This document shows positions 42,648 to 56,191 of a stretch of 64,000 nucleotides of DNA, one piece after another; position 1 is the first letter of the stretch, and each line of letters begins with the position of its first letter. Origin of the DNA: Kangiella shandongensis. Its GTDB lineage: Bacteria > Pseudomonadota > Gammaproteobacteria > Enterobacterales > Kangiellaceae. A model generated the notes under the pieces. That model saw nothing but the letters and a program-made list of their open reading frames with translations, did no database searches and had not been told where the DNA came from. Both the position numbers and the translations under genes were made by a program. Location of the stretch: the NCBI RefSeq assembly GCF_020005365.1, contig NZ_JACNML010000001.1, positions 124,001 through 188,000 of the forward strand. Direction: 5' to 3'.

Positions 42648-43439
42648 TTAACCTATTTTTAATAATTCTTTAATTTGATCGATAAAACTCTTTTTTTCAG
42701 GTTTCTTCGGTTCAACAACAGGCGAAGACAACAGAATGACCGAGACATTATCGCTACCCCCATTTTTACATGCAAGCGAGACCATATACTCTATTTTTGC
42801 TTGGTTATCTCGTTGCATGCGTAACGCACCAATCAACTCTGTGCGCGATAATTCATCATATAAACCATCACTGGCTAATAGAATGTGTTCACCATAATCC
42901 CACTCTCGCGTCAAAAAGCCAATATTTAATTGATGATCATTCTCAATCCCCAAGCATTGGGTTATAACGTGACGCTTCGGATGGTGTTTGGCTTGAGAGG
43001 GCTCCAGTAATCCTGCATTCATCAACTTTTGAACTAAGGTATGATCTTCAGTCAACTGCGTTAACTCACCAGTGATTTCATTCCACAGATAAGCACGGCT
43101 ATCGCCAACCCAGGCCAGCTCATAAGCATCACCTTTCGAATGCAAAGCCACCACCGTTGCCCCGCGGTCTTGCTCTTCATGACGATTATACGCTTTAATC
43201 ACAGAGTGAGCGGAATGGACAGCATTAAACAGGTTTGCCCCGGCAATAATGGATTTTCTAATTTCTTTAACCGTGTATAAACTGGCCTGCTCGCCTTGCT
43301 TCAGACCACCAACCCCATCAGACAATAGCCATAAGCCTAACTCGGATGAGCCATACACTTTATCGTCGTTATTTTGGCGAGACACACCTTTATGAGACAA
43401 CATTGCGGATGCAATGCGTTGAGTTTTTTGTTGTGACAT
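42648..43439 (-). CDS. PP2C-type Ser/Thr protein phosphatase
   Basis: A 263-residue phosphatase of the bacterial PP2C/Stp family. The acidic metal ligands are visible in NNDDKVYG, LLSDGVGGLKQGEQAS, WVGDSRAYL, LLASDGLYD and GSDNVSVILL. It is the first gene of the PP2C-FHA-kinase operon, with the FHA gene 12 bases downstream. It probably counteracts the kinase. Confidence 0.93.
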   Translation of the reverse strand: MSQQKTQRIASAMLSHKGVSRQNNDDKVYGSSELGLWLLSDGVGGLKQGEQASLYTVKEIRKSIIAGANLFNAVHSAHSVIKAYNRHEEQDRGATVVALHSKGDAYELAWVGDSRAYLWNEITGELTQLTEDHTLVQKLMNAGLLEPSQAKHHPKRHVITQCLGIENDHQLNIGFLTREWDYGEHILLASDGLYDELSRTELIGALRMQRDNQAKIEYMVSLACKNGGSDNVSVILLSSPVVEPKKPEKKSFIDQIKELLKIG

Positions 43440-43554
43440 TAACCCTCCTACTCTAGCCCACAGAGTGTAACCGTTTGCTTACATTAGGAATGTTAACCAA
43501 GCCACAATTTACTTTTAGTGACTTGAAGTCTATATACATAGTACCCATATAAGT

Positions 43555-43560
43555 TATAAT
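43555..43560 (+). promoter_or_regulatory. -10 element of the ssrA promoter
   Basis: TATAAT ends 12 bases before the mature 5' end of tmRNA, allowing a short 5' leader to be removed by RNase P. An alternative -10, TATAAG at 43548-43553, pairs with TTGAAG at 43523-43528. Confidence 0.6.
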
Positions 43561-43572
43561 GAACTGTTCCAT

Positions 43573-43923
43573 GGGGGCGAATCTGGCTTCGACGTGGATT
43601 ACGAAACTTTAGTTGCATGTCGAGATGTTCAGCGAATCTCGTAAAATCAAAGCTGAAAACTTATAGTTGCAAACGAAGACAACTACGCTTTAGCCGCTTA
43701 AGGCTAACTGTCTACTCTGAGCGTCCTTGGTAGGAGCTAGACAGTCATAGACAGGGACTCGCAGGTAACTGTGCTCGGCAGCCAACTGTTAAACTTTCCT
43801 CGAGACCGCCTTTGAAAGCCTGACCATTGGCTCGTTAAAGGTTAAATTAAAAATGGTTCTAAGCATGTAGATTCTGAAGCAGAGGATTTGCGGACGCGGG
43901 TTCGAGTCCCGCCGCCTCCACCA
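43573..43923 (+). ncRNA. ssrA: tmRNA
   Basis: 351 nt. The tRNA-like acceptor stem pairs 5' GGGGGCG with 3' CGCCTCC (one G-U), and CCA is encoded. The T arm GCGGGTTCGAGTCCCGC is present near the 3' end. The resume codon GCA is at 43669-43671. The tag reads A N E D N Y A L A A and stops at TAA, 43699-43701. It rescues stalled ribosomes with SmpB, encoded 4.3 kb upstream. A minus-strand open frame across its 3' half is an artefact. Confidence 0.97.
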
Positions 43924-43931
43924 AATAAACA

Positions 43932-43959
43932 AAGGCTCACCGAAAGGTGGGCCTTTTTT
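43932..43959 (+). terminator. Intrinsic terminator of ssrA
   Basis: AAGGCTCACC, loop GAAA, GGTGGGCCTT and six Ts. A classic rho-independent terminator just downstream of the CCA. Confidence 0.9.
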
Positions 43960-43973
43960 GTTGCTTCTTCTGA

Positions 43974-44420
43974 TTACTTTAAGTCCCAAAACGCATGGTA
44001 ACTTTTACCTTGCCAGTCTTGCACGGTCACCCAGAGTTTATCGCTTTCAGTCACTTGTTCGGGAAAAGGTGCATGGGCGTGTTTGAGGTCGCTGGCGCCG
44101 TGGATCACGCCGTCTACGCCTTCAGGCATGGGGGCTGGTGATTCACCGACACTCATGTAGGCGTAGCGGATTTTATCTGTGCAGCCTTCGCAGAACGTCA
44201 AACTGAAGTCTTTGAGGTACCCACCACCATAATCGTAAGCCGCTTCGTTGTTCAGCGGCATTGGCTGAACGGTAAAAGGACCTATATCTTTTTGCTCTAA
44301 CGGCTCGGGGAACGTCGGATTCATCTGGTGGTACAAATACCAAATTGGCAAAATCAACAACAGCCCATTAAGGCAGTATTTCCAGCGTTTTGTTGCTGCT
44401 TTTTTTGCAGGTTTAGCCAT
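43974..44420 (-). CDS. Unknown membrane-anchored periplasmic protein of the iron-uptake cluster
   Basis: A 148-residue protein. A basic N-terminus and one helix (LNGLLLILPIWYLYH) anchor it; the rest is periplasmic and contains a CEGC pair (about residue 77) and several His near the C-terminus (HAHAPF). It overlaps the end of the PepSY gene by 8 bases, so it belongs to that operon. The CxxC pair could bind a metal or form a disulfide. The family was not recognised. Confidence 0.75.
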   Translation of the reverse strand: MAKPAKKAATKRWKYCLNGLLLILPIWYLYHQMNPTFPEPLEQKDIGPFTVQPMPLNNEAAYDYGGGYLKDFSLTFCEGCTDKIRYAYMSVGESPAPMPEGVDGVIHGASDLKHAHAPFPEQVTESDKLWVTVQDWQGKSYHAFWDLK

Positions 44421-45570
44421 TAGCCAATTCCTCCTGTAACGTCTTGGACTTTACTTTCTTCGGGCTTTTTACAGTCCGTTTACTGTAAATCACAAAGCCG
44501 CTGATCGACATCATGCTCAATAACAGACCAAAAAAGAACCATAGAATCTTGGTCCAGATCCCACCCAAGGTGCCGTAGTGCAATGGATCCGTGATATGCA
44601 CGATGGTTTGCAACCCATTCATGGTGTCAGGCTGACGTAATTCCTCAACTGTCCCGGTCCAGGGGTTGACGTAAGCTTGGTGGCTGTAGGAATCATAAAA
44701 TACTTCGCCCCCCGAGCCCATGATCGTGAAATGACCACGATGGTGCTCTGGCATGGCGATATAGGAAGGCTCGAACCCTGGCATGACCTGTTCGGCGCTG
44801 TGCATTGCCGCTTCAAGTGAAATTCGCTGCGGAACCGCTTTCTGGTTTTGGCTGGTCGGCACTTGCTGGATCATCACGGCTTCGGGTTCGTCCCAGACGT
44901 CCGAGCCATTATGCCAGCCTATAGCTTGTATAAAGTAACAGAGCCCAGTCACCCCCATCACCATCAAAAACCATATCGACCAGACACCACTCAAACGATG
45001 AAAGTCACCAAAGAAAGTCCGCGCGCCTTTCTTTCGCCGCAAACGCGGCTGAGTAAATGATTTCCAAAACTTTTTATAAACGACCAAACCAGTGATCAAG
45101 GCACCCAGAGTCACTAGGGACATCAGCGAAACCAGGTAATATCCAATGCTGTAGCCTTCCTGCCATGGAAATAACAGCCAGCCATGCAATGAGCGCATAA
45201 ACTCGACGAAAGTGAAACCATTGTTAATTTCCTGGATCTCACCAGTATATTGATTGATATAAGCCATACCGACAGGGTGATCTTTGCTACTGAATCGAAT
45301 CGGTGTCACCAAATATGGCTCGAGCACCATCACCCCCTGAATCTTGGCATCGGGTATTTCTTCTTTAACCACATCCACCAGCTCGTATACCGGCTTAGCC
45401 TCCAGCTGCTGAGGATTATTAGCCCGAGCATTTGGATTGGTCAGCCACGTAAGCTCATGACTCAGTACAGCAATGGTTCCCGTTAAACATATAAAACTGA
45501 ACAAAATCCAGATGGGAAGCGAAAGCCAACCATGAACCTGAAACCATAAACGACGATTTTTTATTGCCAT
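44413..45570 (-). CDS. PepSY-associated TM protein, probable ferri-siderophore reductase
   Basis: A 385-residue inner-membrane protein of the PepSY_TM family (MAIKNRRLWFQVHGWLSLPIWILFSFICLTG). Four helices and two PepSY-like periplasmic domains are visible; His residues in the helices (FHRLSGVWSIWFLMVMG, THIT-type IVHITDPLHYG) fit heme-bound reduction. Such proteins, next to TonB siderophore receptors, are often ferric-siderophore reductases. The upstream TonB receptor gene and a Fur box support an iron role. Confidence 0.88.
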   Translation of the reverse strand: MAIKNRRLWFQVHGWLSLPIWILFSFICLTGTIAVLSHELTWLTNPNARANNPQQLEAKPVYELVDVVKEEIPDAKIQGVMVLEPYLVTPIRFSSKDHPVGMAYINQYTGEIQEINNGFTFVEFMRSLHGWLLFPWQEGYSIGYYLVSLMSLVTLGALITGLVVYKKFWKSFTQPRLRRKKGARTFFGDFHRLSGVWSIWFLMVMGVTGLCYFIQAIGWHNGSDVWDEPEAVMIQQVPTSQNQKAVPQRISLEAAMHSAEQVMPGFEPSYIAMPEHHRGHFTIMGSGGEVFYDSYSHQAYVNPWTGTVEELRQPDTMNGLQTIVHITDPLHYGTLGGIWTKILWFFFGLLLSMMSISGFVIYSKRTVKSPKKVKSKTLQEELANG

Positions 45571-45604
45571 TTTATCTAACCCAGATTAAAGAAAAGTACT
45601 AACG

Positions 45605-45639
45605 AAAAGGCACGGAACCTGTTTTCACAGGCCCGTGCC
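45605..45639 (-). terminator. Terminator/attenuator between the TonB receptor and PepSY genes
   Basis: GGCACGG and CCGTGCC form the outer stem and CCTGT/ACAGG the inner stem, with TTTT following on the minus strand. It would reduce read-through from the receptor into the PepSY gene. Confidence 0.65.
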
Positions 45640-45666
45640 AGTCCTTTTACGACTACAAGATTTGTT

Positions 45667-47826
45667 TTACATTCCCCAACGTACGGTCAGTGTATAGTTG
45701 CGTGGTGCACCGTAGTAGCCTTGTGCCCAATACAAACTGGTCAGGTATTTTTCATCCGTCACGTTGTCAACATTAAAGGTTGCCGAGAGATTATCCGAAA
45801 TTTCGTACCCTGCCATCAAACCGACGACTGCATAACTGTCCTGTTCAACGCTGAAAGGCTGGCCTGCATTTACACCAGTTGTAGCAACTCCCTGATCCCG
45901 ATAGATATCATCCTGCCATCTGACGTTCATTCCCAATCGTAAGGCTTCAAACTCAGGGAAAGTATATGAGCCCGATAAGCGTAGTGTATTTCGCGGTGTA
46001 AAGGTACGAACATCTTCACCATTCGCCCCCTCGATATCCACGTGCGTGAAACCACCTGACAGTTGCAAGCCTTTAGCCACCTGCCCCATCACGTCAAACT
46101 CATAGCCTTGACTGGACACGCCATCGACACCAATAAAGTAATCCTGACCTGTTGTTGTGTCGGTACCTGCATATTCAGCAATGTTGTTTTGCTCAGTATC
46201 AAAAACGGCAAAGCTCACGTTCAGCATATCGTCAAAGAACTCACCCTTGATGCCTAACTCATAGTTGACGCCATCAACTGGATCCAGACGATCACCATGA
46301 ATATTTTTTTCACGTTGAGGGTTAAAAATCTTAGTATAACTGCCATACAATGACAGGTTATCACTGACGTCATAAACCACACCGGCATACGGCGTGATTT
46401 CATTATCAATATTGTACTCTTTCGGCTGACCATAACTGGTTCCTTCCGAGTCCATACTGGTTGAACGGAAACCAGTAATCAAAGACAACTCATCCGCTAA
46501 TGACCAGCGTGCTGCCGCATAAAAGCTTTTCAATTCATCGGTAAAGTCGCTGCCATTTTCATAAGGTCCGAAGCCCGGTCTTGGATAATCACCAGTCCAG
46601 TCATCAAACGATGGTAATGACGTACCGATATCCTGACCGTATACAGATACATCATCGGCTTCTGAGCGCGACCAGTTAACACCAAAATTCGCCTGATGCG
46701 AACGCCCAGCCAGATTAAAAGAACCGTTCAAAGCAATATCGGCTAACAGTTGTTCATTTTTATAGCCATACAGACTTGAATAAGCAAATAAACCGCTTCG
46801 ATCTGGATTCAAACCACCGGCAGAATAAGCGTAAAATAAGGCGCTGTTAATGGTGTCCTTTCGCTTGCTGATGGTTGTGACCAGCTCCCAGTCATGGCCC
46901 AGATTATAGACTAGCTCGGCAAAGGTACGGTTAATCGTGCCATCCCAGTAAGACCAGTCGGTTGCAGTGCTACGCGACACGTCATAATCGACCTGAGTCC
47001 CGTCAGTATAATTCAGTGTTAAAGCCCCCCACATTGGGCTGTTAGGCTTATTATCCTGCGAGGTATGACCCACCGTTAATATAGCGTCTTCAGACAAATC
47101 AAACTCTAATACCCCATAGAAGATCTCTTTCTCCACAGAGTAACGATTCAAGTAAGAGTCTTTGTTCTGATAGGCACCAACAAAACGGCCTCGGATAGAA
47201 CCATCTTCATTCAGACTACCGGAGATATCCGTTTCAACACGCTGATTATCCCATGACCCAGCAATGGCAGCGATAGAAGCATGAAAGTCATCCGTTGGGC
47301 GTTTACGCACAAAGTTAACGGTTGCCGACGGATTGCCGGTACCCGACATCAGGCCGTTAGCACCACGGATCACTTCGATGCGATCATAGATCGCCACATC
47401 AATGTCACCGTAGGTATTACCGTAGACAAAAGGAACACCGACACCGTCATATTCAAAGTTCGTGATATCAAAACCTCGCGCACTGTAATAAGTGCGATCC
47501 GTTTCGACTTTCTCAACGTTGACGCCACTGGTGACCTGTAACACATCGTTGATGTTTTGCAGGGCAAAATCATCCATCTGTGCACGGGTGACAACCGAAA
47601 TCGCCTGCGGTGTTTCGCGTAACGTAAGCCCCATGCCAGTAGCGCTGCTGGCATCTTTCTCAAGATAAACGCCGTTTCCGTCAATCCCTTCACCAACGAC
47701 TTCTATCACTTCAGTTTCTTGATTGTCATCATCTTGCTTAGTGGTATTTTCTTCCGCATCGGCTCCCTGAATACTCAAAGCCCCCAATACTACTGCCACC
47801 GCAACATACACTTTTTTTGTCAACAT
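45667..47826 (-). CDS. TonB-dependent siderophore receptor
   Basis: A 719-residue outer-membrane receptor. It has a signal peptide (MLTKKVYVAVAVVLGALSIQGADA), a TonB-box-like ETEVIEVVGEG (about residues 36-46), a plug domain (about 60-180; GLTLRETPQAISVVTRAQMDD, IEVIRGANGLMSGTGNPSATVNFVRKRP) and a 22-strand barrel ending in NYTLTVRWGM. The plug motif RGANGLMSGTGNP is typical of hydroxamate/ferrichrome-like siderophore receptors. A Fur box lies 62 bases upstream of the start. Confidence 0.95.
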   Translation of the reverse strand: MLTKKVYVAVAVVLGALSIQGADAEENTTKQDDDNQETEVIEVVGEGIDGNGVYLEKDASSATGMGLTLRETPQAISVVTRAQMDDFALQNINDVLQVTSGVNVEKVETDRTYYSARGFDITNFEYDGVGVPFVYGNTYGDIDVAIYDRIEVIRGANGLMSGTGNPSATVNFVRKRPTDDFHASIAAIAGSWDNQRVETDISGSLNEDGSIRGRFVGAYQNKDSYLNRYSVEKEIFYGVLEFDLSEDAILTVGHTSQDNKPNSPMWGALTLNYTDGTQVDYDVSRSTATDWSYWDGTINRTFAELVYNLGHDWELVTTISKRKDTINSALFYAYSAGGLNPDRSGLFAYSSLYGYKNEQLLADIALNGSFNLAGRSHQANFGVNWSRSEADDVSVYGQDIGTSLPSFDDWTGDYPRPGFGPYENGSDFTDELKSFYAAARWSLADELSLITGFRSTSMDSEGTSYGQPKEYNIDNEITPYAGVVYDVSDNLSLYGSYTKIFNPQREKNIHGDRLDPVDGVNYELGIKGEFFDDMLNVSFAVFDTEQNNIAEYAGTDTTTGQDYFIGVDGVSSQGYEFDVMGQVAKGLQLSGGFTHVDIEGANGEDVRTFTPRNTLRLSGSYTFPEFEALRLGMNVRWQDDIYRDQGVATTGVNAGQPFSVEQDSYAVVGLMAGYEISDNLSATFNVDNVTDEKYLTSLYWAQGYYGAPRNYTLTVRWGM

Positions 47827-48037: not shown

Positions 48038-48604
48038 TCAGCGGCTGATAATGCGCTGGACAGTTTCTTGTGCTTTATCAATGTCACCGATTTCCTGAAA
48101 CAGAACTCGCCCATTTTCGTCTAAAACTGTCATCAAGTTTGAGTGTGCGACTTCGTTATCATCGCTTTTTTTGTACTTAATATTCAGCGCCATGGCCAGA
48201 CTTCTAACGTCCTGTTCTGAACCGGTTAGCAATGTCCAGCTCTTCGGATCCAGCTTGCGCCGTTTGGCGAACGACTTTAACACCTCAGGGGTATCTGAGT
48301 CTGGTGTTAATGAAATTAACACAAAACCGACTCGCTCCTGCTCATTTTTGGGAAGTGACTTTTGAACTTCCTGCATCGTCGCTACAATTGTTGGACAGGT
48401 ATGCATACAGTGAGTATAGATTAGACTCACTACCTGCTTTTTGCCTTTTAACTGTCCAATGTTTAGCGACTCTTCATCTTGAGTCGTCCACTGACTACCC
48501 AGTTGGTAAATAGAGTCTCCAGGCATATCGCCAGCAATCACTACTGAATGAGCAGCAAGACCTAAGACACTACTAATTAGAATATTCGTTAGCCATTGTT
48601 TCAT
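48038..48604 (-). CDS. SCO1/SenC family copper chaperone-like thioredoxin
   Basis: A protein of about 188 residues from the ATG at 48604. GGAG precedes it; an ATG at 48616 would overlap the upstream gene. An N-terminal signal (NILISSVLGLAAHSVVIA) is followed by the thioredoxin fold with CMHTC and the distal His in VAHSNLMTV. SCO proteins deliver copper to redox centres. Being the last gene of the nirK operon, it probably loads copper into NirK rather than cytochrome oxidase. It is downstream of an FGE-like gene with its own GGAG. Confidence 0.9.
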   Translation of the reverse strand: MKQWLTNILISSVLGLAAHSVVIAGDMPGDSIYQLGSQWTTQDEESLNIGQLKGKKQVVSLIYTHCMHTCPTIVATMQEVQKSLPKNEQERVGFVLISLTPDSDTPEVLKSFAKRRKLDPKSWTLLTGSEQDVRSLAMALNIKYKKSDDNEVAHSNLMTVLDENGRVLFQEIGDIDKAQETVQRIISR

Positions 48605-48605
48605 A

Positions 48606-49379
48606 TTAATCTCCATTGGCTGATTTCATATCTGAAGCACAACGAAAGCCTAAGTTTGATAATGTAAACTTGGCTTCTAAACTACTCCTGAAGCCATACC
48701 GCATGAAAGCGGCATAATCTCCGGGGTCGACCGCACCACTCGCCCCTCCCGCACAAAAGAGCTTGGTATCTATGGTGCTATCTTCGCGAGACTCCCCTGT
48801 GACCAGCGTCGAGTTAAAATCTTCCGTCCACTCCCAGACCAGGCCATGCAAGTCATGAACGCCCCAGTAATTAGCAGGGCTCCCACCAACGCTCGGTAGA
48901 GTTTTTGGGCTGGGCTTGCTATACCAAGTCAATATCTGTTGTTTATAACCAGACTCAAGACTTCCGTTTGCCTGTGTTTCACTGGCCAGTGCCGCCAGTT
49001 CCCACTCAGCAACTTTAGGTAACCGCTTACCTTGGGACTGACAGTAGGCATCCGCCGCAAACCAGGACACATAGGTTACTGGACTCTCCGCGGCAATTGC
49101 CTCAAAGCTTTCGTCACTGTCCCAATGTTTTAAATAGTCTTGCTCAACAAAAATTGAAGGTGCTGCTGTCTTGCGCCACTGTGGATTTTGCTCGACAAAC
49201 TCCAGATATTGTTGATTAGTCACGGGATATTGATCAAGGTAGAAGCTACTAACCGTCTGCATTGGGCTATCCTCGCTCATATACAGCGGCCGGTACTCCC
49301 CCCCTTCAATCAAGACCTGCTCACTGGCCCCCGCAAGAGCCAGTGAAACAGTTGCTATGATAAGGGATAGTATTTTCAT
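48606..49379 (-). CDS. SUMF1/FGE-fold protein, NirV-like
   Basis: A 257-residue exported protein with signal peptide MKILSLIIATVSLALAGAS. The formylglycine-generating-enzyme fold shows YPVTNQQYLEFVEQN near residue 50, VSWFAADAYCQSQGKRLPKVAEWE near 108, and the C-terminal GFRCASD. NirV proteins of this fold accompany nirK in many denitrifiers. It lies 17 bases downstream of nirK and is cotranscribed with it. Whether it is catalytic or a maturation partner is unknown. Confidence 0.88.
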   Translation of the reverse strand: MKILSLIIATVSLALAGASEQVLIEGGEYRPLYMSEDSPMQTVSSFYLDQYPVTNQQYLEFVEQNPQWRKTAAPSIFVEQDYLKHWDSDESFEAIAAESPVTYVSWFAADAYCQSQGKRLPKVAEWELAALASETQANGSLESGYKQQILTWYSKPSPKTLPSVGGSPANYWGVHDLHGLVWEWTEDFNSTLVTGESREDSTIDTKLFCAGGASGAVDPGDYAAFMRYGFRSSLEAKFTLSNLGFRCASDMKSANGD

Positions 49380-49396
49380 AACAGTTCAATCAGACC

Positions 49397-50797
49397 TTAG
49401 TGGCCTTTCTGTTGGCGAACTTTCTGTACCTGCTCAACTGTAATTTCGCCCCCTTTATTGCCCCAGGAGTTCAGTACATAAGTTAAAACGTTTGCGATTT
49501 CATCATCTTCCAGCTTCATCGCTGGCATCACACTGTTAAAGCTCTCGCCGTTAACTTTAATCGGACCCTCGAGACCGTGAAGAATAGCTTTAATGCCTCG
49601 AACCGGATCCTCATTGAAGTAATCGGATTTTGCTAAAGGCGGAAACGCCTGAGTCACGCCGGCACCATTAGCCTGGTGGCATGCTTTACAGTTGGCGTCG
49701 TAAACCCGCTTACCGAACTTGATTTTATCTTCCTTGTTCTGAGCTTTAGCAACTTTATAATCGCCTTCCATGGTCTGCACAGCAGAGCCTTCGGGCTGGT
49801 AAATGGCATCGCTTAATTTACCTGAGTAAACGACCTTATCTTCATCCCCTTTAACGTTAATCATGCCTAACGCACCTTTGTTAAATGCGCGGAAGATAGA
49901 GTGATCCACCAGAATCAGATTACCCGGAACCTGTACCTCAAAATCAACGATCGCAGAGCCACCAGCAGGAACCAGTGTCGTCTGAATATTATGATTCTTA
50001 GCACTACCACCTTCGACGTAAACGGTATCGAAGATCTCACCAATCACATGGAAGGAAGAAACCAGGTTTGGGCCACCGTTACCCACATACAGGCGCACCG
50101 TTTCGCCTACTTTGGCTGTCAATGCATTATCGCCTGTCAAGCTGCCAACCGCGCCATTAAAGACGACATAATCAGCATCCTCATCGATAGCTTTTTCCAT
50201 ATCGAACGGTTGAAGACCTGCTTCACCATATTTGCCTTTGGTATAGAAGTCACCCTGCATCACATAGTATTCGCGATCCACTTCGGGTAGCCCTTCTTTC
50301 GGCTCGACCAGAATCAGGCCGTACATACCGTTTGCGATATGCATGCCCACTGGCGCTGTCGCGCAGTGATAAACGTACAAACCAGGATTAAGAGCTTTGA
50401 AGGCAAAGGTTGATGTGTGACCCGGAGCCGTAAATGACGATACCGCACCACCGCCAGGGCCAGTTACCGCATGTAAGTCAATGTTGTGCGGCATTTTTGA
50501 TGAGGGGTGATTAGAAAGATGGAATTCAACTTCATCACCCTCTTTCACACGAATAAAGCTACCCGGTACAGAGCCTCCAAAAGACCAGTAGACATACTCC
50601 ACACCATCGGCCATGGTGCCGACTTTTTCTACCGTTTCCAGGTGCACCACAACACGCGCGTTATGATCACGCTCAATGGCTGGTGGTACATTGGGCGGTG
50701 AAGTCAATACAGCGTCTTCAACAGGTAATTTCTTTGCTGCCCCAACGGAAGCAACAGTTGCTATCGCTAGAGTCACTAGCAGTTTCTTTCCCCACAT
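49397..50797 (-). CDS. nirK: Copper nitrite reductase with C-terminal cytochrome c domain
   Basis: A 466-residue periplasmic enzyme. Start ATG at 50797 ([18 protein letters not shown], signal peptide); GGAG is 8 bases upstream, while the ATG at 50803 has only 3. Two cupredoxin domains: type 1/type 2 copper ligands in [25 protein letters not shown] and ILVDHSIF. The putative catalytic Asp is in NIDLH and the His in SSFHVIG. A fused class I cytochrome c with CKACH near residue 370 and a Met ligand (MPAM) supplies electrons, as in the Ralstonia-type enzyme. It reduces nitrite to NO and is operonic with the NirV-like and SCO genes. Confidence 0.95.
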
Positions 50798-50860
50798 AAT
50801 CATTTCTCCACATGGTTATTCACTGTCATCTAGTATCAGACTAAAATGCGCAAACCAATA

Positions 50861-50872
50861 TGATCTAGATCA
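50861..50872 (-). promoter_or_regulatory. FNR/DNR-type box upstream of nirK
   Basis: TGATCTAGATCA has the TGAT-N4-ATCA core of Crp/Fnr-family sites. It is palindromic and about 65 bases before the nirK start. The same core, with CTAG as spacer, recurs upstream of nnrS. Confidence 0.6.
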
Positions 50873-50884
50873 TGCAGTCGCTTA

Positions 50885-50907
50885 AATACGTAAACTAATT
50901 ACATCTT
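50885..50907 (-). promoter_or_regulatory. Weak NsrR-type site upstream of nirK
   Basis: On the minus strand the halves are AAGATGTAATT (9 of 11 to AAGATGYATTT) and GTTTACGTATT, a poor second half. It lies 12 bases further out than the FNR-type box. Confidence 0.35.
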
Positions 50908-51040
50908 TTGTTATAAGAACAACACTACCATAGAAAACGTATGAGCTTCTGTTAAGAAGTTATTATTTAAAGAAATTACAGGGTTAGCCATATCGGCCAA
51001 TACTGGTACTTAAAACATAATGGAGGTGAATATAGCCTTA

Positions 51041-51484
51041 TTATACTTCAGAGATTTGCAATATGCGTGCTAACTGTGAGCGGTATTGCTCTGGTAACAC
51101 ATCTTCCAGCGTATACTCGTCAAGGGTACTCAAAAAAGACTTTAAAGCATTACTTAACACCCCTTTTAAACCACAAACGGGTGTAATAACACACTGATTT
51201 TTATCAGAAAAGCACTCTACTAATGCCAAGTCAGGCTCCATTTCACGAACCAGAACACCAATACAGATTTCATTTGGTTCCAACTTAAGACGTATGCCAC
51301 CATTTTTACCACGAACGGTTTCGATATAGCCCTTTTTATTCAGGCTATGTACCACCTTCATCAGGTGGTTACTGGAAATATTATAGCGCTCTGAAATTTC
51401 TTGAATAGTCGTTAACCGCCCCTTCTGCAATGCGAGAAGCATTAACACCCGTAAGGAATAATCAGTATACCGGGTTATATTCAC
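51041..51484 (-). CDS. nsrR: Rrf2 family nitric oxide-sensing repressor NsrR
   Basis: 147 residues. The N-terminal winged helix has MNITRYTDYSLRVLMLLAL. The iron-sulfur Cys triplet is ECF...QCVITPVC (about residues 90-104). NsrR represses NO-detoxification genes, and NO destroys its cluster. It follows ybaN by 16 bases in one operon, beside nnrS-ric-norB. A second NsrR paralogue is at 61652-62125. NsrR-type palindromes upstream of ybaN suggest autoregulation. Confidence 0.9.
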   Translation of the reverse strand: MNITRYTDYSLRVLMLLALQKGRLTTIQEISERYNISSNHLMKVVHSLNKKGYIETVRGKNGGIRLKLEPNEICIGVLVREMEPDLALVECFSDKNQCVITPVCGLKGVLSNALKSFLSTLDEYTLEDVLPEQYRSQLARILQISEV

Positions 51485-51500
51485 AAAGTTTTCTCCTAAA

Positions 51501-51866
51501 CTACGACGAAGGCCGGCTTACAATAAAAAGTATTAATCCAACAAAGAAAAACCCAAGTCCCCAGAGCAGATAAGGGTGTCCGCCGCTATACCACAGAACA
51601 AGCCAGCTACTAAGCATCATGCCGCAAGCCAAACACTTACCGGTAACCGGGATCGCTCTTCTTTGATACCAGTCATTAAGAACCGGACCAAAATGACGGT
51701 GATTCATGAGCCAGCTCTTCAGTTGTGGTGAGCCCCTGGATGCAGCCCAAATTGCTATCAATAAAAAAGGTGTCGTCGGTAATAAAGGTAACAAAGCCCC
51801 AATAAAACCGATCAACACAGCCGCTAAGGCAATGATTTTATAGAATAATTGACCCGGCACAACCAT
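51501..51866 (-). CDS. ybaN: YbaN family (DUF454) inner-membrane protein
   Basis: 121 residues with three or four hydrophobic segments, beginning LFYKIIALAAVLIGFIGALLPLLPTTPFLLIAIWAASRGSP, which is the DUF454 signature. AGGAG lies 8 bases before the ATG. Function unknown. Being the first gene of an operon with nsrR and preceded by an NsrR-like site, it is likely NO-regulated here. Confidence 0.85.
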   Translation of the reverse strand: MVVPGQLFYKIIALAAVLIGFIGALLPLLPTTPFLLIAIWAASRGSPQLKSWLMNHRHFGPVLNDWYQRRAIPVTGKCLACGMMLSSWLVLWYSGGHPYLLWGLGFFFVGLILFIVSRPSS

Positions 51867-51904
51867 TACATTTACTCCTGTACCATAGCAACAGAACGAC
51901 CTAT

Positions 51905-51927
51905 ATCATGCATTTACAATATACCTT
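51905..51927 (-). promoter_or_regulatory. NsrR-type site upstream of ybaN-nsrR
   Basis: Halves ATCATGCATTT (9 of 11) and AATATACCTTA-like (8 of 11 to the reverse half), spaced 11-1-11. It is about 39 bases before the ybaN start. Confidence 0.5.
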
Positions 51928-51950
51928 ATTTTCAATCATGTCGACCTATC

Positions 51951-51964
51951 TTGACCTAGATCAA
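51951..51964 (+). promoter_or_regulatory. FNR/DNR-type box between ybaN-nsrR and nnrS
   Basis: TTGACCTAGATCAA differs by one base from TTGAT-N4-ATCAA. The CTAG spacer is shared with the nirK-side box at 50861. Confidence 0.6.
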
Positions 51965-52069
51965 AGATAAATCAACTCATGCCACTATCCTTTAAAAGCA
52001 AATAATATCGTAATTCTTTTTGATAAACCAAAAGCATCTTTGAGTGAAGAGCTTTTCAATACAAACATA

Positions 52070-52092
52070 AAGATGTATTATAAATACATCTT
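52070..52092 (+). promoter_or_regulatory. NsrR operator upstream of nnrS
   Basis: AAGATGTATTA, one base, AAATACATCTT. The 11-1-11 palindrome is almost perfect (10 of 11 paired) and matches the NsrR consensus in both halves. It ends 18 bases before the nnrS ATG. Confidence 0.85.
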
Positions 52093-52110
52093 CTAGGGTT
52101 TAGGGCCAGC

Positions 52111-53232
52111 ATGAAGAAAGTGAATGCACAGAAACTATTTTTCCCCGCAGCAAGCATTTATGCTGCAATGGCAGTGCTACTATCTGTATTCGCCCTTCAC
52201 GCTGGCTGGCCCAGGGGCTTGATTGCCACAGGTCACGGCCATGAAATGTTTTTTGGTTTTACTCTGGCGCTGATTGCAGGTTATAACTTGGGGAAAATAA
52301 CGCAACGTTTACTACTTGCTTTATTTGTTTTGTGGCTTGCCGCTCGTATTAGTTACTTATTGGCTCCTTCACATTTAATTTCACAGTGGTTGAGCCCTTT
52401 GTTTGCTCTATTTCTAGCCTGGCATATCGTGCCACGCTTTTTCGCTGCAAAGAAGTGGCGCAATAAAGTAATCAGCCCCCTGCTATTAATAATTTGTTTA
52501 TTACCTGCGTTGTGGTTATTGCAGCAGCAAATGTCACTCACAATCGAGCATCGCCAGCTGGTTTCCGCCACCTTACTCCTACTGATCTTATTAATGGCGT
52601 TTTTTGGTGGCCGCATGATAGCGCCAACCACCGCCGGTGAATTACAAAAGCAGGGAATACGGTTACAAACTCCCGTACAACCTCGCTTAGAAGCGTTAAT
52701 ACTCCTGCTACTGCCCCTTGGTGCCCTCAGCATCTTAGTCCCTAGCACCAAACAGTTAGCAGGAGTACCTACATTTTTAGCTGCCTGTGTATTAATGGTT
52801 CGTCTCGTTCGTTGGCAGGTTTGGCGCTGCCCGAATCGTCCGGACTTATTTGGGTTAGCGGTCGGCTATTTATGGCTGGCACTGGGTACTTCAGGTCTGA
52901 GCCTGGCGTTCTGGTTTAAGCTGCCTGTCGATACTATTTTGCACATGATTACTGTCGGAGCCATAGGCTGTTTGTCGGCGAGCCTGATGTTGAAGTCCCG
53001 TTTTAAACGGAGTTCAACAGAACCACGACCCATGGTCGCATCGCTCAGCATCATCTCCCTCATTTCTCTGGCGACCATTTTACGAGTTATAGCTACCGCC
53101 GATACTTTCTCGCAACTACTGCTATGGCTCTCTGCTGTGTCATGGGCATTAGCGTTTATACGCTTAGGATTTCTCCTGCTAAGCGACGCTAATAACCCAA
53201 GCAGATTGACAACTTGGAGACAAGCAATATGA
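52111..53232 (+). CDS. nnrS: NnrS family heme-copper membrane protein
   Basis: A 373-residue polytopic protein with about ten to twelve helices and conserved His residues. The opening HAGWPRGLIATGHGHEMFFGFTLALIAGYN is the NnrS signature; a later HMITVGAIGCLSASLMLKSRF also fits. NnrS protects against NO and its iron complexes. It is the first gene of nnrS-ric-norB and carries the best NsrR operator of the window. Confidence 0.93.
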   Translation: MKKVNAQKLFFPAASIYAAMAVLLSVFALHAGWPRGLIATGHGHEMFFGFTLALIAGYNLGKITQRLLLALFVLWLAARISYLLAPSHLISQWLSPLFALFLAWHIVPRFFAAKKWRNKVISPLLLIICLLPALWLLQQQMSLTIEHRQLVSATLLLLILLMAFFGGRMIAPTTAGELQKQGIRLQTPVQPRLEALILLLLPLGALSILVPSTKQLAGVPTFLAACVLMVRLVRWQVWRCPNRPDLFGLAVGYLWLALGTSGLSLAFWFKLPVDTILHMITVGAIGCLSASLMLKSRFKRSSTEPRPMVASLSIISLISLATILRVIATADTFSQLLLWLSAVSWALAFIRLGFLLLSDANNPSRLTTWRQAI

Positions 53233-53906
53233 ATTTATTAATCACCCCATTAGGACAAATAGCCCGTGATATTCCGGGTGCCAGCGAACTGTTGTACCAA
53301 CAGGGTATTGATTATAGCTGTGCTGGTAAGACGACACTGGCCGATGCTCTGGATGCTCAAGCACTGGATATAGCGGAAACTGTTAACGCGTTAAATTATT
53401 TAGTTAAACACCCAGCCCCGGCAACTCCGAGCCTGAGTGAGGCATCTAACGAAGAGATCATTAACCATATTCTGGAGCGCTACCATCAGGTCCACCGTCA
53501 GCAGTTACCCGAGTTGCTGGATCTGGCCGATCGCGTTGAAACCGTTCACGCTTCACACCCGGCCTGCCCTAAAGGTTTAACCGAACATTTACAAAAAATG
53601 TCACAAGAAATGGAGTCGCATATGCTCAAAGAAGAGCAGATTTTATTTCCGATCATTCAACGCGGCATGGCTCATATGGCAACAAGCCCGGTCGCGGTGA
53701 TGCGAATGGAGCACGACGACCATAGCGAATCGATAAAACAATTGCAGCATCTGGCAAACAACTTTGAAGTTCCGGCGGATGCCTGCAATACCTGGCAAAC
53801 ACTTAACCAAAAACTCAAAATTTTTAAACAAGACTTAATTAATCATATTCACATCGAAAACAACATTTTATTTGAACGTATTGATAACTACCTGAGAGGA
53901 GCATAA
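53229..53906 (+). CDS. ric: Ric/YtfE/ScdA di-iron protein for iron-sulfur cluster repair
   Basis: 225 residues from the ATG at 53229 in an ATGA overlap with nnrS, with GGAG upstream. The N-terminal ScdA_N segment (PLGQIARDIPGASELLYQQGIDYSCAG) contains the conserved Cys. The hemerythrin-like domain has metal ligands in YHQVHRQQLPE, MESHMLKEEQILFP, RMEHDDHSES and HIHIENNILFE. It repairs clusters after NO damage. norB follows 3 bases downstream. Confidence 0.92.
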   Translation: MNLLITPLGQIARDIPGASELLYQQGIDYSCAGKTTLADALDAQALDIAETVNALNYLVKHPAPATPSLSEASNEEIINHILERYHQVHRQQLPELLDLADRVETVHASHPACPKGLTEHLQKMSQEMESHMLKEEQILFPIIQRGMAHMATSPVAVMRMEHDDHSESIKQLQHLANNFEVPADACNTWQTLNQKLKIFKQDLINHIHIENNILFERIDNYLRGA

Positions 53907-53908
53907 TC

Positions 53909-56191
53909 ATGGGTAAATATCGCAAACTCTGGTTTACCCTGATAGCAATATTAGCGGTAACCTTCGCTATACTTGGCTATTTTGGTAATGAAGTCTATCG
54001 ACAGGCCCCTCCCATCCCTGAAAAAGTCGTCAGCACTGATGGGCAGGAATTAATGACCAAAGAATCGATTCTTGATGGCCAAACGGCATGGCAGTCTATC
54101 GGTGGCATGCAACTGGGATCTATCTGGGGGCACGGAGCCTATCAAGCACCGGACTGGACCGCTGACTGGCTCCACCGAGAATTGATGGCATGGCTGGATA
54201 TGGCGGCGCAAGACAATTATGGCGCGGCTTATGATGAGCTGGATGGCGAACAGCAACAAACCCTCAAATATCGCTTAAAACAAGAGTATCGCACCAATAC
54301 GTTTAATAAAGACACTGGTAAGATGGCAGTTTCAGCACGTCGTGCTCAAGCAATCGCACAAACCGCGGATTACTATGATCGGTTATTTAGCGATGCCGCC
54401 GACCTCAAAGAAACTCGCAACCACTACGCGATGAAAGAAAATACATTGCCTAATGCGGAACGTCGGGAAGTCATGACACAGTTCTTCTTCTGGACAGCCT
54501 GGGCAGCCGCAACCGAGCGCCCTGGTAGCGATGCCACTTACACCAATAACTGGCCGCATGAACCGCTTATCGACAACAAACCTACCTCTGAAAATATCGT
54601 GTGGTCGATCATCAGTGTGATTCTGTTGATCGCCGGCGTTGGCGGACTGGTATGGGGTTGGGCCTTTATGCGCAAGAAGGAAGAACATGAGCCTCCGGCT
54701 CCAGAGCAAGATCCCATTACCACGTTTAAGTTAACGCCTTCGCAGAAAGCGTTAGGTAAATACTTGTTGGTTGTGGTTGCCCTGTTTACGCTACAAGTCC
54801 TGTTAGGAGGGTTCACCGCACACTATACCGTCGAAGGACAAGGCTTCTATGGTATCGAGACCTCAAAATGGTTCCCCTACTCGCTGGTTCGTACCTGGCA
54901 TATTCAAGCAGCCATGTTCTGGATCGCTACCGGTTTTCTGGCGGCGGGTCTATTCCTGGTACCGATCATCAACGGCGGTAAAGATCCCAAGTACCAGAAG
55001 CTCGGTGTCAACGTGCTATTCTGGGCTCTGGTTGCCGTGGTCGCCGGCACTTTTATCGGTAGCTATATGGCAATTGCGCAAGTCCTGCCTGAACACTTAA
55101 GTTTCTGGTTAGGACACCAGGGCTATGAGTATGTCGATCTGGGACGCCTATGGCATTGGGGCAAATTCACCGGGATTGTCCTGTGGCTGGTTCTGATGCT
55201 GCGCGGTATCGCTCCAGCGCTGAAAAAGAAAGGTGATAAAAACCTGCTGGTACTGTTAACGGCATCGGTAGTTGCCATCGGTTTATTCTACGGTGCCGGC
55301 TTCTTCTACGGCGAAAGAACACACATTTCCATCATGGAATACTGGCGCTGGTGGATCGTGCACCTTTGGGTTGAAGGCTTCTTTGAAGTATTCGCAACCG
55401 TGTCGCTGGCTTTCATTTTCCACAGCATGGGGTTGATCGGTCGCTCAACCGCAACGGCTGCCAGCCTTGCTTCGGCTTCCATCTTCATGCTTGGCGGTGT
55501 TCCTGGCACCTTCCACCACCTCTACTTTTCCGGTACAACAACACCTGTGATGGCAGTTGGTGCAACTTTCAGTGCACTCGAAGTGGTGCCTTTGATTGTC
55601 CTGGGTTATGAGGCCTGGGAAAACTATCGCTTGAAAAACCGTGCGCCCTGGATGGAAAAAATGCGCTGGCCTTTGATGTGCTTCGTGGCCGTCGCCTTCT
55701 GGAATATGTTCGGCGCTGGCGTACTGGGCTTTATGATCAACCCTCCGGTATCACTGTACTATGTGCAGGGTCTGAACATGACCCCAACCCACGCACATGC
55801 CGCTCTGTTCGGTGTCTACGGCTTCCTCGCCATTGGTTTTGTGCTGATGATATTACGCTATATTCGTCCGCACATGGTGTTTGACGAAAAGCTGATGAAA
55901 ACAGGGTTCTGGTGGCTCAACATTGGCCTCATGATGATGCTGCTAACGAGTCTGTTGCCGGTAGGAATCATTCAATTTTATGCCAGCGTCAGCGAAGGTT
56001 TCTGGTACGCCCGGAGCGAAGCCTTCATGCAAAGCGAACTTCTTTACACGCTACGCTGGGTCAGAACTATCGGTGACGTCGTCTTTATCGTTGGTGCTCT
56101 GGCCGTTACCTGGCAGGTCATTAAAGGGCTACTCAATAAACCAAGCCGCGAACCGCTTACTCAGCCAATCCCAGTCAAAGAGACTCCATAA
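53909..56191 (+). CDS. norB: Single-subunit quinol-dependent nitric oxide reductase (qNOR)
   Basis: A 760-residue NorB/NorZ type with the N-terminal extension of the quinol-dependent class instead of a NorC partner. Heme and FeB ligands are visible in LVRTWHIQAAMFWIATGF, HLWVEGFFEVFATVSL, GTFHHLYFSG and THAHAALFGVYG. The Glu of VEGFFE is a conserved active-site residue. It reduces two NO to N2O. It is third in an operon with nnrS and ric, downstream of an NsrR operator, and followed by a strong terminator. There is no norC or norQ/norD nearby. Confidence 0.95.
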   Translation: MGKYRKLWFTLIAILAVTFAILGYFGNEVYRQAPPIPEKVVSTDGQELMTKESILDGQTAWQSIGGMQLGSIWGHGAYQAPDWTADWLHRELMAWLDMAAQDNYGAAYDELDGEQQQTLKYRLKQEYRTNTFNKDTGKMAVSARRAQAIAQTADYYDRLFSDAADLKETRNHYAMKENTLPNAERREVMTQFFFWTAWAAATERPGSDATYTNNWPHEPLIDNKPTSENIVWSIISVILLIAGVGGLVWGWAFMRKKEEHEPPAPEQDPITTFKLTPSQKALGKYLLVVVALFTLQVLLGGFTAHYTVEGQGFYGIETSKWFPYSLVRTWHIQAAMFWIATGFLAAGLFLVPIINGGKDPKYQKLGVNVLFWALVAVVAGTFIGSYMAIAQVLPEHLSFWLGHQGYEYVDLGRLWHWGKFTGIVLWLVLMLRGIAPALKKKGDKNLLVLLTASVVAIGLFYGAGFFYGERTHISIMEYWRWWIVHLWVEGFFEVFATVSLAFIFHSMGLIGRSTATAASLASASIFMLGGVPGTFHHLYFSGTTTPVMAVGATFSALEVVPLIVLGYEAWENYRLKNRAPWMEKMRWPLMCFVAVAFWNMFGAGVLGFMINPPVSLYYVQGLNMTPTHAHAALFGVYGFLAIGFVLMILRYIRPHMVFDEKLMKTGFWWLNIGLMMMLLTSLLPVGIIQFYASVSEGFWYARSEAFMQSELLYTLRWVRTIGDVVFIVGALAVTWQVIKGLLNKPSREPLTQPIPVKETP

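Follow-up and report, generated by a model that had tools for sequence, protein, structure and literature searches.

Gene content of the locus

We examined a gene cluster for the reduction of nitrite and nitric oxide (NO) in Kangiella shandongensis, together with its predicted control by the repressor NsrR and by activators of the FNR/DNR type. The window, meaning the whole stretch of 64,000 nucleotides (nt) that was analysed, is C10:124001-188000 (contig NZ_JACNML010000001.1 of GCF_020005365.1) in a genome of 2.8 Mb that is 99.98% complete. Eight genes fill positions 48038-56191 exactly, and all are backed by Pfam and NCBIfam profile searches (Table 1). Their spacing suggests three transcription units: nirK/nirV/sco, with a 17-nt gap between nirK and nirV and an 11-nt overlap between nirV and sco; ybaN/nsrR, with a 16-nt gap; and nnrS/ric/qNOR, where nnrS and ric overlap by 4 nt (ATG start of ric) and 2 nt separate ric from qNOR. 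A preliminary description of the window had proposed the same genes, span and three-unit grouping; the genes and span proved exact, and the grouping is backed by the spacing.

NirK carries the type 1 and type 2 copper-ligand and active-site motifs of a copper nitrite reductase; the individual roles (type 1 or type 2 copper, catalytic Asp, His) are presumed. In a structure-sequence search its nearest solved relatives were PDB 2zoo (E 1.5e-230) and 3ziy. The motif SSFHV places it in Clade II as PMC4770552 uses that term. The NO reductase is a single fused NorB with an N-terminal domain, a COX1 domain and the conserved His/Glu motifs, and its residues 1-755 align to solved NorB (761 residues; 8bgw and others) with 1322 bits. 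The SCO protein likely functions in copper delivery, and we take NnrS to be a membrane protein with haem and copper that serves NO tolerance. For the NsrR-like protein the best PDB match is NsrR 5n07 (E 4e-16); its Cys 91, 98 and 104 are presumably the ligands of an iron-sulphur cluster.

Table 1. Genes and predicted regulatory sites of the locus, in window coordinates
Feature	Position	Strand	Remarks
SCO1/SenC-family protein	48038..48616	-	PF02630 E 2.7e-22
FGE-fold NirV-like protein	48606..49379	-	PF03781 E 5.8e-37
nirK, copper nitrite reductase fused to C-terminal cytochrome c	49397..50803	-	TIGR02376 365 bits, cut-off 296
-10-like hexamer GATACT of nirK	50832..50837	-	22 nt after box
FNR/DNR box of nirK promoter, ATGATCTAGATCAT	50860..50873	-	8/10, reached by 23% of shuffles
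Weak NsrR-like site upstream of nirK box	50885..50907	-	core 50887-50905, 10/14
nsrR-like gene, Rrf2-family repressor, GTG start	51041..51484	-	PF02082; best NCBIfam model NsrR, 143.3 bits (cut-off 182)
ybaN-like gene, DUF454 membrane protein	51501..51866	-	PF04304 E 3.9e-32; 16 nt upstream of nsrR
Predicted NsrR operator, ybaN side	51905..51927	-	core 51907-51925, 11/14
FNR/DNR box of divergent region, TTGACCTAGATCAA	51951..51964	+	9/10, reached by 4% of shuffles
-10-like hexamer TATCCT, distal nnrS promoter	51986..51991	+	21 nt after box
Proximal nnrS promoter TTTTCA-17-TATTAT	52053..52081	+	by eye; -10 within NsrR operator
Predicted NsrR operator of nnrS, near-perfect palindrome	52070..52092	+	core 52072-52090, 14/14
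nnrS	52111..53232	+	PF05940 E 1.2e-47
ric/ytfE, di-iron Fe-S cluster repair protein	53229..53906	+	NF008221 262 bits, cut-off 254
qNOR, quinol-dependent NO reductase	53909..56191	+	PF22085 E 4e-72, PF00115 E 1e-58

NsrR operators and FNR/DNR boxes

NsrR sites were scored against the consensus gATGyAT-N5-ATrCATc, with 14 scored positions (PMC1274295). To judge the significance of a site, the intergenic region around it was shuffled by dinucleotides, and the share of shuffles that scored at least as high was noted. A second scoring used a 23-mer consensus with 22 positions. None of 5000 shuffles reached even 13/14 for the nnrS operator, whose core is the sole exact 14-position match in the genome. 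The score of the ybaN-side core was reached by 6% of shuffles, and its 23-mer score of 17/22 by 0.3%. For the core upstream of nirK, the corresponding shares were 33% and, with a 23-mer score of 16/22, 1.3%.

Across the whole genome, 31 NsrR cores were found in forward orientation with at most two mismatches, compared with 10 for a control pattern; at up to three mismatches within the window, the cores were not in excess (7 found and 9 expected). There are two one-mismatch cores in the genome. One of them, at C20:2779, belongs to a near-perfect palindrome and precedes the start of a second nnrS by 54 nt (399 amino acids, PF05940 367 bits; in L125, core 1501-1519 and open reading frame 1574-2773); no FNR/DNR box above 8/10 was found in the region upstream of this gene. 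The other, at C22:225073, is 90 nt away from the GGDEF-EAL gene that follows it (in L126, core 1501-1519 and open reading frame from 1610), which is divergent from a histidine kinase gene. Operators of this form are thus found at NO genes and are scarce elsewhere.

FNR and DNR were assumed to share one motif. The pattern TTGAYCNNGRTCAA occurs 63 times in the genome with at most one mismatch, against 24 for the control, and four occurrences are exact, including the box at 51951. Among the other exact boxes, one is found upstream of a hemN-like gene and one upstream of ccoN, as is known for FNR/ANR-type regulons. The preliminary description had called for a genome-wide scan for both kinds of site, and with consensus patterns both are enriched. 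Since two of the three best NsrR cores lie at NO genes, that check has been answered for NsrR within the limits of a consensus pattern. By single-site score only the 52070 operator stands clearly above chance; the other sites are supported by conservation.

Conservation of the sites and promoter geometry

Twenty genomes of the genus (own included) and 60 other relatives were searched for nirK at E<=1e-100. The gene occurred in 6 of the 20 and in 3 of the 60. Within the genus, qNOR was present in 8 genomes and narG in 3, one of them with nirK, and a DNR homologue was present in 10, including every genome that carries nirK (6) or qNOR (8).

For the promoter comparison we used 11 nirK promoters: our own, those of five genus genomes, that of L107, which belongs to the same order, and those of L013-L016, the top four of the named loci. 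The NirK matches of G046 and G070, which covered only residues 25-335 and 19-336, without the cytochrome part, were left out. A box of at least 10/12 was present within 200 nt before the start in all 11 promoters, compared with 0.29 expected. The ybaN-nnrS region was compared in the seven genus genomes with the ybaN-nsrR/nnrS arrangement (own, G003, G006, G010, G012, G014 and G019), six of which carry nirK. The layout is the same in all seven: towards ybaN there is an NsrR core scoring 10/14 or better, then come one or more boxes of 9/10 or better, and towards nnrS there are one or two NsrR cores that score no less than 11/14. In G009, which has qNOR and no nirK, NsrR cores were present and no box of at least 8/10 was found.

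The sites named in the preliminary description were recovered. The palindrome at 52070-52092, called near perfect, is the unique exact match; the one at 51905-51927 has its counterpart in 7/7 genomes; that at 50885-50907, called weak, is common only to the closest relative; and the boxes at 50860 and 51951 belong to the classes kept in 11/11 nirK promoters and 7/7 ybaN-nnrS regions, respectively.

A -10-like hexamer lies 21 or 22 nt past the box in 17 of the 18 promoters of the two sets. In the nirK set, a hexamer matching at least 4/6 positions stands at a gap of 21 or 22 in 10 of 11 promoters (22 in our own genome and in G010), and in the nnrS set a 4-5/6 match stands at a gap of 21 in 7/7. 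The mean match to TATAAT peaks at a gap of 21 in both sets, at 3.45/6 for nirK (all-gap mean, 2.05) and 4.29 for nnrS (mean, 1.82). In class II activation the box is centred near -41.5, and the predicted box-to-hexamer spacing matches this geometry. The nnrS operon would then have a distal promoter activated by FNR/DNR and a proximal promoter covered by the NsrR operator. Five genus relatives carry TTGACG-17-TAATAT at the place of the proximal promoter, between and under the two nnrS-side NsrR cores (by eye). Towards ybaN, the distance from box centre to NsrR core is 38-43 nt, which resembles the +42 spacing seen in part of the named nirK loci described below. A class II geometry toward ybaN was considered and rejected, as the gap-21 peak is absent in that direction; this comparison used an earlier box picker that was wrong for our own nirK, L105 and G012.

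Predicted control of nirK

Confirmed NirK relatives numbered 154, and the arrangement of sites at nirK was surveyed in the 80 best named loci among them, with up to 10 kb on each side. Near nirK, an FGE-family (NirV-like) homologue was present in 79/80 loci, SCO in 78/80, a qNOR or NorB homologue in 27/80, and an NsrR homologue in 13/80. These counts include L054, whose upstream stretch was wrong; it was dropped for site pairing, which was counted over 79 loci. A box of at least 9/10 was found in 55 of these, and in 20 of the 55 it is accompanied, no more than 90 nt away, by an NsrR core scoring 11/14 or better, compared with 0.6 expected by shuffling. The spacing is regular in 18 of the 20 paired loci: 10 have the core at -46 relative to the box, and 8 have it at +42 to +48. 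Judged by record title, with a classification that we presume, 19 of the 20 are betaproteobacteria and one is named only as Pseudomonadota; several are close Ralstonia relatives, so that the loci are not independent. Predicted pairing of NsrR and FNR/DNR sites at nirK is common.

In the K. shandongensis genome, about 29 nt separate the 50885 site from the centre of the nirK box, which is downstream of it. The closest relative (G010) has an NsrR-like site of 11/14 at the same place, with 20 of 23 positions kept while the DNA further upstream has diverged, and among the six genus nirK genomes only these two have nsrR as the direct neighbour of nirK. Together with the low share of shuffles reaching its 23-mer score, this argues for NsrR control of nirK. 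In contrast, a third of the shuffles match the 14-position score, no core above 9/14 was found in the nirK promoters of G006, G012, G014 and G019, and the position differs from that in the 18 regularly spaced named loci. Because the site is weak and oddly placed, nirK may answer to FNR/DNR alone. In our judgement NsrR control of nirK is evenly balanced, and we see an equal chance that only nnrS-ric-qNOR and ybaN-nsrR are under NsrR, with nirK-nirV-sco controlled by FNR/DNR only and the 50885 site being a chance match or another element. The preliminary description had both promoter regions combining an NO sensor with an activator, which stands for the ybaN-nnrS region and is weaker at nirK, where the NsrR-like site is poor.

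Regulators and respiratory genes elsewhere in the genome

Five HTH_Crp_2 matches were found in the genome, including FNR-like and DNR-like proteins. The FNR-like protein (C1:20611-21318) has the N-terminal cysteine motif CQSCSINQLC and is encoded about 7 kb from the cco genes for cbb3 oxidase. The DNR-like Crp/Fnr protein (C19:32234-32947) has the 'DNR protein' 3dkw, which we take to be from P. aeruginosa, as its best PDB match (E 4.5e-33), and its gene adjoins those for NrdG-like protein and NrdD, the anaerobic ribonucleotide reductase (L109, C19:32234-39247). Four one-mismatch FNR/DNR boxes (C19:36006, 36050, 37133 and 37165) lie near nrdD and a gene for a pyridoxal-dependent (tyrosine-type) decarboxylase. 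The FNR-like and DNR-like proteins, cbb3 oxidase and NrdD point to microaerobic or anaerobic capacity. The suggestion of an aerobe without Dnr is thus not supported; these genes lie outside the 64 kb on which it was based.

No nar or nap genes, including narG, were found in the genome, and the sole PF00384 gene encodes NuoG (643 bits, cut-off 470). A genome search for NosZ (TIGR04246) returned only part of NirK, under the cut-off. The three COX1-family genes in the genome encode CtaD, CcoN and the qNOR of the locus, and no cNOR was found in this search. The genome thus lacks, by these searches, the nar or nap plus nosZ of complete denitrification, and a truncated route from nitrite to nitrous oxide (N2O) is supported as the predicted gene content, as had been proposed for the window.

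Proposed mechanism and alternative explanations

From the genes, the operators, their conservation and the promoter geometry we infer protein binding, responses to NO and oxygen, and N2O production as follows. The locus very probably serves both respiration and detoxification as a nitrite-to-N2O module, and its control would have two layers. Falling oxygen, probably together with NO, would lead the FNR-like and/or DNR-like regulator to bind the boxes at 50860 and 51951, giving class II activation of nirK-nirV-sco and of the distal nnrS promoter. NirK would produce NO. NsrR proteins generally sense NO through attack on their iron-sulphur cluster, and here this reaction would free the operators at 52070 and 51905. 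Expression of nnrS-ric-qNOR would rise, as would that of ybaN-nsrR under autoregulation. The qNOR would then reduce NO to N2O, while RIC would mend Fe-S clusters and NnrS would aid NO tolerance.

Several observations weigh against this interpretation. The NsrR-like protein falls under the NCBIfam NsrR equivalog cut-off (143.3 against 182 bits). Six NsrR homologues likewise fall under it (113-145 bits): two are from genus relatives and four from nirK loci of betaproteobacteria, and in one of the six the RirA model outscores NsrR. The NsrR model looks narrow, and its cut-off serves for labelling and does not describe a biological property. The 50885 site is weak, and a place upstream of an activator box is odd for a repressor. 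One of the four exact boxes lies between an ArsR-like gene and an apparent hppD and has no NO link. For nirK, the mean -10 match at a gap of 32 (3.36) nearly equals the best value of 3.45, and L107 is without the hexamer. G003 has the box, and nirK was not found in this assembly, which is 86% complete and whose contig ends 1.5 kb past nsrR. G004 (C4) and G008 (C28) carry a DNR homologue 7.5-10.5 kb from narG without nirK or qNOR, which indicates that DNR is not confined to genomes with this locus. The compared genomes are related, so that the counts are not independent. Finally, because one motif was assumed for FNR and DNR, the activator at the boxes cannot be named.

The motif matches might also have arisen by chance in AT-rich intergenic DNA, with no regulation. 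The single-site shares (4-23% for the boxes and 6-33% for the two weaker NsrR sites with the 14-position consensus) and the lack of excess in the window at three mismatches would be compatible with this. However, the unique exact core at nnrS, the one-mismatch core at the second nnrS, the layout kept in 7/7 genomes and the fixed -10 spacing weigh against it, as does conservation for the 52070 operator and both boxes, and we give this explanation almost no credence. A detoxification role in the main, with NirK clearing toxic nitrite and the anaerobic box merely an oxygen gate, has more in its favour. No nitrate reductase was found in the genome, RIC and NnrS are presumably stress genes, and G009 has a form with qNOR and without nirK. 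In contrast, NirK and qNOR both come from families of electron-transport enzymes, the box is common to ccoN and the hemN-like gene, which points to respiration, and DNR co-occurs with the gene set. We regard a mainly detoxifying module as possible, if rather doubtful.

NirV-like protein and the nirK-nirV-sco trio

The FGE fold of the NirV-like protein was confirmed by profile. By eye, its N-terminus resembles a signal peptide, and no cysteines stand where the alignment would place the cysteine pair of FGE. Three other cysteines are highly conserved over 92 alignment rows (85 distinct): Cys 113 in 89 of them, Cys 209 in 92 and Cys 247 in 90. The protein may therefore not be a formylglycine maker. 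The trio of nirK, nirV and sco suggests that NirV and SCO serve the maturation of the cytochrome-fused NirK; no paper linking the three together was found in the library searched.

YbaN and cyclic di-GMP

In seven genus genomes ybaN pairs with nsrR, and in a genome of another family (L238, 3944-4384) it lies directly beside nnrS. A search of 276 genomes from the class gave DUF454 (PF04304) matches in 63. The survey covered 68 regions, comprising all 70 over-cut-off matches of the 62 non-own genomes, with a reach of at most about 4 kb on each side and less at contig ends; four under-cut-off matches were left out. Only 4 of the 68 regions (L213, L214, L217 and L238) had a homologue of NsrR, NnrS (either one) or RIC, and DUF454 was therefore rejected as a general NO gene. 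No qNOR, NirK or DNR homologues were found in the 68 regions, Hmp, Hcp and NorR being outside the search, and no NsrR core with at most two mismatches was found in L214, L217 or L238. No literature tying DUF454 to NsrR was found in the library searched, and the papers listed for ybaN and nitric oxide seemed, by title, unrelated to the gene. Since ybaN and nsrR form a pair downstream of an NsrR operator in the genus, YbaN could be a dedicated NO-response membrane protein, and the NsrR regulon could reach the GGDEF-EAL gene on C22, a direct link from NO sensing to cyclic di-GMP turnover; we consider this improbable.

Four relatives have two further genes immediately upstream of nirK, one for a GGDEF and one for an SBP-PAS-GGDEF-EAL protein (L105, 11765-15755; similar in G006, G012 and G014), which are not at this place in our own locus; the GGDEF and GGDEF-EAL assignments are Pfam-confirmed for G019 only. 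The GGDEF genes between nsrR and nirK in G006, G012, G014 and G019 were rejected as NsrR/DNR targets, as there is no core above 9/14 and a single 9/10 box, in G019 only. The possibility that a nar cluster lies within the locus of these four relatives was also discarded, since the genes between nsrR and nirK do not look nar-like and, in the one genus genome with both nirK and narG, narG is located elsewhere.

Other observations

The NirK of Pseudoalteromonas sp. T1lg88 (L013, 10001-11389) is 88% identical to that of K. shandongensis, compared with 82-83% for four of the five other NirK proteins of the genus, and this closeness suggests that the gene may have been transferred. Positions 43000-47826 of the window encode a TonB receptor, a PepSY-TM protein and a small protein between the SCO gene and a PP2C-like gene. 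By eye, a PP2C-like gene adjoins SCO, or lies within about 7 kb of it, in four relatives too.

Comparison with known systems

PDB entries 2zoo and 3ziy, which we take to be from Pseudoalteromonas and Ralstonia, match NirK over residues 24-463 and 27-465, respectively, the cytochrome c included. The NorB of Neisseria is presumably a qNOR. In a 2005 study, NsrR and DNR sites were described at nirK, norB and nnrS2 in betaproteobacteria, and NsrR and FNR sites in Neisseria (PMC1274295). For Neisseria it is reported that aniA requires FNR and that NsrR acts as a repressor of both aniA and norB, with the dominant effect at norB (PMC10187123). The divergent norB-aniA (nirK) locus of Neisseria resembles the present one in placing nitrite and NO reductases under NsrR and FNR, with a box near nirK (PMC1274295, PMC10187123). 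Unlike in Neisseria, nirK and qNOR are not mutually divergent here; nsrR, ybaN, nnrS and ric lie within the locus; NirK has a cytochrome c and is followed by the NirV-like and SCO proteins; and the genome encodes a DNR-like protein.

Both kinds of site also occur in one promoter region, with DNR in the genome, at Chromobacterium violaceum nirK/norB, Ralstonia solanacearum COG4309-norB and Burkholderia nnrS2 (PMC1274295). However, the NsrR site lies downstream of the DNR site in those betaproteobacterial loci, whereas the NsrR-like site at nirK lies upstream of the box here. As in the described nirK-nirV pairs (PMC4770552), an FGE-family NirV-like gene accompanies nirK, but a third gene, SCO, is added both here and in 78/80 of the named loci. 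The locus offers clear operators and a possible source of N2O in a gammaproteobacterium where Nar/Nap and NosZ were not found in the genome. It is a further case of the described NsrR and FNR/DNR wiring, with an ordinary gene set and a layout of its own, and its regulatory logic extends the network proposed in 2005 to another genus.

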